NCBI RefSeq assembly: GCF_027946175.1
Contig: NZ_AP026671.1
Coordinates: 1,240,001 to 1,304,000 of the forward strand
Length of the DNA: 64,000 nucleotides
Reading direction: 5' to 3'
From: Nitratiruptor tergarcus DSM 16512
Lineage (GTDB): Bacteria; Campylobacterota; Campylobacteria; Campylobacterales; Nitratiruptoraceae
A program made the position numbers and the translations under genes. A model generated the notes under the pieces. The model saw nothing but the letters and a program-made list of their open reading frames with translations, ran no database searches and had not been told where the DNA came from. Shown here in pieces: positions 27,197 to 30,331 of this stretch; the first letter of the stretch is position 1, and each line of letters opens with the position of its first letter.

Positions 27197-27605
27197 TAAA
27201 CTCAAACGCCTCCATCAAAAGCTTGATCGCCTCTATGAGAAACTGCAAAAAGAGAAAGAGGAGGCAAAAAGCAAAACAACAGATACTATCATATCCCTTG
27301 GAATGACACTGCTTGATTCTCTCTTTGGGCGCAAAAGAGTAAAAAGTTCAACCATCTCTAAAGCTGGCTCAACACTCTCTAAAGCAAAACGGGCATACAG
27401 TGAGTATGATGACATAAAGATAGTAGAAAAGCGTATAAAAGATCTAGAAGAGGAGATAGGAACGCTTCAAGAAGAACTTGAAAAAGAACTAGATAAGCTT
27501 GAAGAAAAATATACGCTGCAAAACTATTCACTCAAAGAGTTCTACATCAAACCACGTAAAAACGAAATCAAAATTAATCTGCAGCTTGTGTGGAAACAGG
27601 CCTAA
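27171..27605 (+). pseudogene. Out-of-frame C-terminal part of the HerA-like ATPase
   Basis: Read from about 27171 this frame gives EKIQKRYDSKLKRLHQKLD, a coiled coil, then TIISLGMTLLDSLFGRKRVK, STISKAGSTLSKAKRAYSE, a second coiled coil and a KPRKNEIKINLQLVWKQA end. This is the expected C-terminal region of the upstream ATPase, shifted by +1 (or -2). It lacks its own plausible start. Either the gene is disrupted, or there is a sequencing error, or the ribosome changes frame; I favour a mutation or error. Its stop overlaps the serpin stop on the other strand. Confidence 0.75.
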
Positions 27606-29713
27606 GGCCTGCTCACTACACCCATAAAAAGAGGTGTAAGGGTTTTATTGTGCACAATCATAAAAACAAAAGGTTTGTCGCAATAGAAAGTATAAACAGG
27701 TGGTATCTGCGCTGATGTCTCTACTATAGTAGTGGCTGTGGCTGCTGCGGCTTCACTTCCCTCTTCTGTTACTTCAATGAAAGTTTTGTGAAAGATACCA
27801 CTTACAAAAAGATTTGCATTTGGATTGATAGGCTTGCCAAGTAAAGAGAGGTCAGCACGTACAGGATCAAAAATATCTACAATACCCAATGCTTGCAACT
27901 CTTCAACAATATTTTTTGTCCCCCAAGTGAGTTTAAATTTTGGCATTTTAAACAGTACATCAAACATCTCTCTTTTTGTACTATTAATTTGCTGCATAGA
28001 TGTTTTGGAGAGATTTTCTAAAAGTCCTTGTATATTAAAATCTTCATTTGGCAAAAAGAGCCACATGCTCAGCTCTGCATTTTTATAGGGCAACTCTAGC
28101 GCACGAAATCCATCCATTTCACTAACATTAAAATCACCCTCCATATTCATCATATCCACTTGGATACTCTCTTGCGATGCAACATAAAAAGGCTCTTTTT
28201 CTGTTTTTGTTTTATTGAACTCCTTTTGCCATTTGCCATAAAAATAAAGGGCATTGACAAGCACCATTCTTGTATCTTGTTGTACTGATCCTTGTGGTAA
28301 GAGGTCTTTGATCTTCTCATGCGTCTTCTCTTCAACCCAACTATTTATCTCTTGGCGTACCTCTTCGCTTTTTTCTAAAAAGTTTGCACTATAAATGGAA
28401 GCATCAAAGAGATCCTCTATCAAATAGCGATAACTTTTATAAAGATGAAATTTTTGCTCTACCCATGCAGCATTTGCAACAGCCAGTGTAGCATCACGAA
28501 CCTGCAGCTGCTTTTGCAGCTCTTCATACGAATCGCCAATGGCAAGATTTGATGGATAGTCTAAAGCTTTTCTTATTTGCGTGCGACTCTCATCATGAGC
28601 TCCAAAGTAGAGCATATCCAACACCCCTACAATACTAAAAGGAGAGATAAAAAGATTTTGCCCATCGTAAAGCTTTTGTGTTAGATGCATGCCAAATTGA
28701 TAGATAGATGTTGCAAGTTTTGTTCTGTTTGTCTCTTTGATATTTTCACATGATCCACTATGCAAAAAGCGAGCCTGTGAATCTGCTTTGAGTACACAGT
28801 AGTTGGGATATGTCTGTTGTAGCGGTTCACAAGGTGTTGTAATGCATTCAATCTGCTTCAACCCACATACTGGTGCTTGCGGTTCATCATCACAAGAAGT
28901 TATTTGCTGCAGTAAAGCTACATCTTCTCTGTTGCCATAATCAAAGACCACTTTTTGTGTATCTTTACTCACTGCAAAAGCAGCTATGTAATATGCCATG
29001 TCGGCAGTGCCAATCTCTGGTCGTATAATTTTTACTGGGATCTTTATCACACCACCAAAAAATTGTGGATCCTTAAAAATAATGCGATTTGAACCGCTTG
29101 TTTGCACTATTTTATACAAAAGCAGCTTGTAACTTGTAAAATCGATAGGATAATCAAACCCTGCATCTTTTGCCTCTTGGTAGTGAGTAAATACCTGAAA
29201 CTTTGGCAGATTTCTATATTCGTGATTGCGTTTTAATCCCAAATATTTAATAAAGCCTTGAGAGAAACTTATCGAGTTTGGTAAAAGCGTGTAATTAAAA
29301 AATCCTAAATCTTCATAGCGAAAAAAGTCTCCTGGCTCCACTGGAAGCAATCTATATACTCTCTTGTTTTTTGTGTCTGCAGAAATAGCAATAAAATCAA
29401 ACCGCGTATCCCCATCATTATCAAGATCTCCAATGTAGTAAAAAAGCCACACTGGTGGAGTATCGCAAGAGAGATTTATCTTTTTCCAGCCAAAAACATT
29501 AGTTCGGCTTGGCGTTACACCATGCAATCTATAGCAGTTTCCTCTGGGTGTCTCATAAACCCAGTTATAGGCACTATTTTGAGAAGTTTCGGGATAAAAA
29601 GCAAAATATTTGAATTTCCCAGAAAGATTAAAACTCCTATATTGTAAACTTAAAGGATGAAATTCAGCAAATAGCGAAAAAACCAGCACAAACAGTAACC
29701 ATAAATGTCTCAT
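27602..29713 (-). CDS. Secreted Kazal-serpin fusion, predicted double protease inhibitor
   Basis: This 703-residue exported protein has a signal peptide (about 1-16), an unassigned domain (about 17-270, with a Cys60/Cys83 pair and an Asp-rich GDLDNDGDTRFDF stretch), a Kazal-like domain (274-322) with six Cys at 274, 283, 290, 295, 306 and 322 around APVCG, TTPCEP and TYPNYC, and a full serpin domain (about 330-703). The serpin hinge EEGSEAAAATATTIV begins at residue 650; counting P17-P1 from it puts P1 at Thr666 and P1' at Ser667 (EcoRange of ETSAQ). VNALYFYGKW and the C-terminal FVFMIVHNKTLTPLFMG are classic serpin segments. The hinge alanines predict an inhibitory, not a storage, serpin. 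Target proteases are unknown. It has its own -10 box, and a structured RNA lies upstream. Confidence 0.93.
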   Translation of the reverse strand: MRHLWLLFVLVFSLFAEFHPLSLQYRSFNLSGKFKYFAFYPETSQNSAYNWVYETPRGNCYRLHGVTPSRTNVFGWKKINLSCDTPPVWLFYYIGDLDNDGDTRFDFIAISADTKNKRVYRLLPVEPGDFFRYEDLGFFNYTLLPNSISFSQGFIKYLGLKRNHEYRNLPKFQVFTHYQEAKDAGFDYPIDFTSYKLLLYKIVQTSGSNRIIFKDPQFFGGVIKIPVKIIRPEIGTADMAYYIAAFAVSKDTQKVVFDYGNREDVALLQQITSCDDEPQAPVCGLKQIECITTPCEPLQQTYPNYCVLKADSQARFLHSGSCENIKETNRTKLATSIYQFGMHLTQKLYDGQNLFISPFSIVGVLDMLYFGAHDESRTQIRKALDYPSNLAIGDSYEELQKQLQVRDATLAVANAAWVEQKFHLYKSYRYLIEDLFDASIYSANFLEKSEEVRQEINSWVEEKTHEKIKDLLPQGSVQQDTRMVLVNALYFYGKWQKEFNKTKTEKEPFYVASQESIQVDMMNMEGDFNVSEMDGFRALELPYKNAELSMWLFLPNEDFNIQGLLENLSKTSMQQINSTKREMFDVLFKMPKFKLTWGTKNIVEELQALGIVDIFDPVRADLSLLGKPINPNANLFVSGIFHKTFIEVTEEGSEAAAATATTIVETSAQIPPVYTFYCDKPFVFMIVHNKTLTPLFMGVVSRP

Positions 29714-29957: not shown

Positions 29958-30331
29958 TGGTGGAGGTGTCGGGAATCGAACCCGAGTCCGGAAACAACCG
30001 ACCATAGGCCTCTACGTGCGTAGCAGCGCTGATTGATCTCGACTACTACAGGCTCAGCGCCCGAAACCTGCAGTAGTCCAGCCTCAAAGTGTCGATAAGC
30101 GGCTAGGCAACCGCTTATCCAAGCCCTCTTGCATGTGACCCCACAAAATCCTATCCCAGAGGGCAGGGATAGGTGCGAGGGACCGTAAGTTTCTTAACTT
30201 ACGCAGCTACTGCGTAAGCCGGTCTGTAATCTGTATTGTTTGCGTCTATTTTTTTGAGGAGTTTTTACGGCGTTCCTCAAGCCGGCACGCAGCCTATGAC
30301 CGACTGCTCCCGTCGAAGCCATGTCACCCCC
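29958..30331 (-). ncRNA. ssrA: tmRNA (ssrA)
   Basis: tmRNA rescues stalled ribosomes and tags the unfinished peptide. The 5' end GGGGGTGACATGGCTTCGACGG begins at 30331 and pairs with the 3' CACCTCC before the encoded CCA at 29958-29960, closing the tRNA-like domain; GGGTTCGATTCCC is the T arm. The length is 374 nt. The tag reading frame is at 30243-30199 on this strand and encodes ANNTDYRPAYAVAA before TAA, very like the ANNVKFAPAYAKAA tag I recall for Campylobacter. It lies 20 nt downstream of trpA. Confidence 0.97.
30199..30243 (-). other. tmRNA tag-peptide reading frame
   Basis: Fourteen codons starting at the resume codon GCA (30243-30241) encode ANNTDYRPAYAVAA, followed by TAA at 30201-30199. 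The last residues (AVAA) give the hydrophobic-Ala-Ala end read by ClpXP/ClpAP-type proteases. Confidence 0.93.

Follow-up and report, generated by a model that had tools for sequence, protein, structure and literature searches.

Why would a bacterium encode a serpin, and does a small cysteine-rich domain in the same chain make the protein a double protease inhibitor? These questions are raised by a minus-strand open reading frame (positions 27602-29713) in a 64,000-nucleotide stretch of the Nitratiruptor tergarcus DSM 16512 genome (1.94 Mb in two contigs), referred to here as the window. A comprehensive phylogenetic study calls the physiological role of bacterial serpins 'enigmatic' (PMC8233489). 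In Nitratiruptor, an unusual and conserved architecture, a near-constant P1 residue and the presence, in the same cells, of a candidate target that has a module in common with the serpin make this role directly testable. The explanation that we favour, with moderate confidence, is that the protein is an exported inhibitory serpin with a Kazal-derived brace or accessory domain and a localising N-terminal module, and that it would act on subtilisin-like or HtrA-like proteases.

Architecture, distribution and inheritance

Counted from its ATG, the protein has 703 residues, with cysteines at 60, 83, 274, 283, 290, 295, 306, 322 and 678; its translation confirms the reading frame, the cysteine positions and the Thr666 given in a preliminary description made from the sequence alone, and the vent origin guessed there is supported as well, Nitratiruptor being a genus of deep-sea vents. 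The hydrophobic N-terminus, which resembles a Sec signal by eye, and the similar starts of the orthologs suggest that the protein is probably exported, as had also been proposed. A search of NCBIfam with the protein assigned no family. Its parts are listed in Table 1.

Table 1. Parts of the serpin protein and its upstream neighbour, with positions in the window.
Feature	Residues	Window positions	Strand	Basis or remark
Sec signal peptide, probable	1-16	29666..29713	(-)	MRHLWLLFVLVFSLFA read by eye; orthologs start similarly hydrophobic
Duplicated N-terminal module	about 22-138	29300..29650	(-)	profile A7 matches, hhalign of halves
Beta-rich middle domain	about 139-272	28898..29299	(-)	AF2 model
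Kazal-derived domain	273-323	28745..28897	(-)	cysteine alignment, relatives, AF2, VIA-align
Serpin domain	338-703	27605..28702	(-)	PF00079, Foldseek
Hinge and reactive centre loop	650-671	27701..27766	(-)	P1-P1' Thr666-Ser667, counted
tmRNA (ssrA)		29958..30331	(-)	upstream neighbour of serpin gene, outside the protein

Of the 16 Nitratiruptor genomes searched, 11 carry the gene (the window's own is one of them), with 34-73% identity and an identical order of domains in all orthologs; the copy in G400 is broken across two contigs. Six cysteines (274, 283, 290, 295, 306 and 322) are invariant among these proteins. With so many orthologs and such constancy, the architecture is not a product of chance. 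In the other genera of the family that were searched, the gene was found in none. The rarity of serpins remarked on earlier extends to the phylum, in that 7 of the 397 Campylobacterota genomes searched have PF00079, in one case as a fragment with a stop, and the two other complete serpins (L007 and L008) are without the extra domains. The words 'Nitratiruptor' and 'serpin' never occurred together in one paper in our literature search, and at title level we found no earlier description of a bacterial Kazal-serpin fusion, which is weak evidence of novelty.

The serpin gene lies between the tmRNA gene upstream and a convergent ATPase gene downstream. The ATPase-serpin adjacency recurs in G374, G401 and G405, and ssrA is near the serpin gene in G400, G401 and G405; the gene has been relocated in YY09-18 and is absent from the site in SB155-2, YY08-10 and G278. 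In G374, ssrA is followed by an open reading frame that looks by eye like an integrase (L084:7416-8657), making the site a possible insertion hot spot. An origin of the serpin gene in a mobile island at ssrA was considered and rejected: because in several species the ATPase gene and ssrA flank the serpin gene, it is simpler to suppose a gene long present in the genus and inherited vertically with losses and moves.

The serpin domain and its reactive loop

The serpin domain is complete, as had been claimed. PF00079 matches at E 1.4e-103 and 347 bits (cutoff 27) over profile positions 4-370 of 370, and a Foldseek comparison of the predicted fold with solved serpins gives E 5e-34 and a TM score of 0.87 by target. 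The closest known proteins are the prokaryotic 'hub' serpins and the SERPINB3/B4-like serpins (MEROPS I4): the domain is 38% identical to conserpin over 356 residues, SERPINB3 is its best match in the PDB, and the inhibitory hinge is shared. What sets the Nitratiruptor protein apart from them is an additional stretch of about 330 N-terminal residues that comprises the N-terminal module, the beta-rich domain and the Kazal-like domain.

The hinge, EEGSEAAAAT, begins at residue 650 and conforms to the P17-P9 motif published for inhibitory serpins, ExGTEAAAA (PMC8233489), with Ser at P14; 10 of the 11 ortholog hinges fit likewise. Its mean identity among orthologs (0.83) exceeds the value of every ten-residue block of the serpin body (310 blocks); the body averages 0.43. 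Both observations agree with the earlier assignment of an inhibitory hinge. Counting 17 residues from the start of the hinge places P1 at Thr666 and P1' at Ser667, which upholds the predicted scissile bond, and the same count gives P1 as Thr in nine orthologs, Ile in one and Val in one. The exception among the hinges is that of G328, RKGSEGSAGT, which is degraded, with Gly at P12 and P9. This sequence could be taken to mean that inhibition has been lost and that the protein now serves in binding or as a structural element, but with all other hinges fitting the inhibitory motif and the hinge being the best-conserved block, we consider such a loss very unlikely.

In the AF2 model, the hinge lies within the sheet (strand 652-662), residues 665-676 have pLDDT <50, and the loop is inserted in part, an arrangement like that of latent or cleaved serpins; the confidence of this placement is low. 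We take the serpin alone to be the most likely inhibitor. According to the standard serpin mechanism, a target serine protease would attack the reactive loop at Thr666-Ser667, the loop would then become strand 4A of sheet A, and the protease would be trapped covalently.

A Kazal-derived domain of altered form

The small domain that precedes the serpin had been described as a six-cysteine Kazal domain, a designation that stands for the relationship but not for the cysteines. In searches with the whole protein, no Pfam Kazal family scores above cutoff, and the best matches of the isolated region are sub-threshold (Kazal_CFAI, E 0.019; Kazal_2, E 0.21). When the region is aligned on PVCG and TYxNxC (together with ovomucoid and SPINK1 sequences, here and in the profile comparison below), Cys274 corresponds to CII, Cys283 to CIII, Cys306 to CIV and Cys322 to CVI. 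CI and CV are absent, and Cys290 and Cys295 form an extra C-x4-C pair within a lengthened beta hairpin; thus only four of the six cysteines are those of Kazal domains, the spacing is wrong, and the six-cysteine pattern (1-5, 2-4, 3-6) does not apply. The predicted fold, on the other hand, has the expected beta2-alpha-beta Kazal topology: residues 282-319 of the AF2 model form strands 282-286 and 298-302, a helix at 305-310 and a strand at 314-319. By VIA-align, residues 272-324 match the FIM module of complement C6 and the FS module of hevin, both of which contain Kazal-type folds; the Z scores (4.1 and 3.0) are low, as would be expected of a stretch of about 50 residues.

A whole-protein search of genome contigs gave no relatives, but an alignment of the Kazal region did. 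The closest outside relatives are from Paceibacterota and Falkowbacteria (45-56% identity), and two of these CPR relatives exceed the Pfam Kazal_1 cutoff of 21, at 29.3 and 24.3 bits. The CPR and archaeal domains (L053-L058, 43-56% identical to the Nitratiruptor domain) likewise have the extra hairpin cysteine pair and the PVCG...TYxNxC frame; unlike the Nitratiruptor domain, their loops are canonical, and none was seen joined to a serpin. Two of them, L057 and L058, one from a Pacearchaeota archaeon and the other from an uncultured bacterium, differ further in having a CV beside CIV and, at the place expected for CI, a cysteine upstream of CII. Most members of this set fall short of the Pfam cutoff or barely pass it. 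A joint profile of the Nitratiruptor domains and these relatives matches ovomucoid/SPINK1 (prob 92.5) and, in the PDB, GmSPI-2 best (E 1.3e-6), followed by an elastase inhibitor, infestin and SPINK1. The profile built from Nitratiruptor alone is not significant against the PDB or against ovomucoid/SPINK1 (prob 12), so the case for Kazal descent is carried by the CPR intermediates. On the combined indications of these relatives, the joint profile, the AF2 topology and VIA-align, we conclude that the small domain is Kazal-derived. It documents a bacterial and archaeal branch of Kazal domains with an extra hairpin disulfide, a branch that Pfam mostly misses.

Whether this domain inhibits is a separate matter. 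The notion that one chain combines two mechanistically different protease inhibitors is not supported as it was stated, because only four of six Kazal cysteines are present, no Pfam Kazal cutoff is passed and the loop is non-canonical. Kazal inhibitors have seven residues between CII and CIII (PMC4169406). The Nitratiruptor loop is acidic, has eight residues in 9 of the 11 orthologs and lacks the P2 Thr, whereas the CPR relatives retain the canonical C-[TI]-x-x-Y-x-P-V-C. Because the would-be protease-binding loop is acidic and in most orthologs one residue too long, a domain of Kazal descent with a structural or accessory role is a better fit than a second inhibitor.

Absence of the CI-CV pair would not by itself prevent inhibition, since GmSPI-2, a Kazal inhibitor (MEROPS I1) that also lacks this pair and has the same two disulfide positions and topology, is fully active against subtilisin and proteinase K (PMC4169406); EPI1a, another two-disulfide Kazal protein, inhibits subtilisin A (PMC1236909). 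In the Nitratiruptor domain, moreover, P2 and P1 of the Kazal loop vary among orthologs within a fixed frame. One could therefore imagine that the serpin traps proteases by its suicide mechanism while the Kazal-like domain acts by the standard mechanism, an acidic P1 (Asp or Glu) being aimed at Glu/Asp-preferring or subtilisin-like proteases. We regard this as unlikely: the Nitratiruptor loop, besides its length, acidity and missing P2 Thr, is without an aromatic P2', the canonical loop is kept in the CPR relatives, and no Pfam Kazal family matches the domain above cutoff. GmSPI-2, for comparison, has a seven-residue loop with Thr at both P2 and P1, and it has no C-x4-C hairpin pair.

The Kazal-like region is better conserved among orthologs than the serpin body (0.58 versus 0.43). 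Such conservation might reflect a clamp that braces the serpin at vent temperature, in the manner of the N-terminal tail of tengpin or the vitronectin SMB domain on PAI-1, elements that precede or bind a serpin, may stabilise its native state and act on the same serpin patch (PMC8233489). Consistent with a clamp, the domain ends about eight residues before serpin helix A in the AF2 model, and most Nitratiruptor isolates are cultivated at 55 C (PMC9723563). However, the pTM of the model is 0.56, and YY09-18 carries the domain although it is grown at 37 C; we consider a clamp possible, if doubtful. The sequences of the tengpin tail and SMB are unrelated to the domain. The higher conservation would also fit a functional surface. 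In the explanation that we favour, the Kazal-derived domain would be a compact brace or accessory with predicted disulfides 274-306 and 283-322 and the hairpin pair 290-295.

The N-terminal module, a plasmid subtilase and candidate targets

What had been called an unknown N-terminal domain can now be divided into a duplicated, recurring module and a beta-rich domain, and its identity is resolved in part. The module consists of two homologous halves (hhalign E 7e-13) with an EF-hand-like DxDxDGDxR loop. It also has DxNxDGxI-type loops reminiscent of EF-hands and dockerins, with a sub-threshold EF-hand score, and strands like the blades of beta-propellers, but there is no significant family or fold match to either group. 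For the middle domain, Pfam gives no match, Foldseek with residues 20-328 finds nothing significant, and VIA-align detects a weak similarity to NigD-like proteins, with 83 residues aligned at Z 4.4. A PrcB-like identity, suspected from the sequence, was dropped for want of Pfam support.

The module is shared well beyond the serpin. Its profile (A7) matches more than ten proteins (about a dozen) in the window's genome, several of which have recognisable signal sequences, repeats of the LVIVD or RCC1 kind, or linkers rich in serine, and it was found in 2 of 68 genera, Nitratiruptor and one other (G357). One relevant protein is a subtilisin-like protease of 606 residues (L096:6787-8604; PF00082), encoded on contig 2 of the same genome, which at 35 kb is plasmid-sized. 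Two related half-modules form the C-terminal end of the subtilases of the window's genome, YY09-18, G404 and G400, and these repeats match the serpin module profile with a probability of 97.3 and E 2.7e-11 (hhalign), compared with E 0.64 at best for shuffled decoys. None of the sister-genus subtilases scores against the profile, and the subtilase of G405 has no module repeats in the DNA searched. The upstream neighbour of the plasmid subtilase, a protein of 957 residues (L096:3905-6775), carries tandem repeats and serine-rich linkers followed by the same half-modules.

Among four closed genomes, the window's genome and YY09-18 have the serpin, the module and the module-bearing subtilase, and SB155-2 and YY08-10 have none of the three. 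Across Nitratiruptor, the subtilase occurs in 5 of the 11 genomes with the serpin and in 1 of the 5 without it. Metagenome-assembled genomes often lose plasmids, and the incomplete pairing in draft genomes is possibly due to such loss in binning. A strict pairing of subtilase and serpin was not accepted as proven, given these counts and the G405 subtilase. We put forward only tentatively the idea that the plasmid subtilase and the chromosomal serpin work at the cell surface as a self-contained protease-inhibitor pair whose related address modules direct both partners to one location; if true, the physiological target of a bacterial serpin could be identified.

In every ortholog P1 is Thr, Ile or Val, and we therefore favour subtilisin-like or HtrA-like serine proteases as the likeliest targets. 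The target could be the cell's own periplasmic HtrA, with the serpin limiting proteolysis in the envelope. The genome encodes two HtrA-type proteases, H. pylori HtrA cuts after V, I and A (PMC7324608), a preference that resembles the serpin loop, P1 is beta-branched in all 11 serpins, and the animal SerpinE2 inhibits HtrA1 (PMC11026092). Yet HtrA is near universal, whereas only part of one genus has the serpin, and the closed genomes SB155-2 and YY08-10 manage without it; we judge an HtrA-directed serpin to be fairly improbable.

Inhibitors caught up in an arms race usually vary at P1. The near constancy of P1 across the genus thus speaks against a serpin directed at foreign proteases, whether of animals, competitors or predators in the vent surroundings, and the module in common with a self-encoded subtilase points inward. 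An outward role is rather unlikely in our estimation, even though the predicted export signal and the patchy distribution of the serpin are in keeping with it, as is the habitat: Nitratiruptor lives on chimneys, and YY09-18 came from a polychaete nest (PMC9723563). In the explanation that we prefer, the N-terminal module would most likely place the serpin at a site common to module-bearing proteins, the plasmid-encoded subtilase among them.

Other members of the module family in the window's genome are encoded at L002-L006, L059-L063 and L097-L100, with C-termini of LVIVD, RCC1, ZU5-like or other type. In the 1675-residue protein at L100:1504-6528, the module precedes dozens of RCC1-like GTVVTWG repeats, arranged in three blocks with poly-serine linkers between them.
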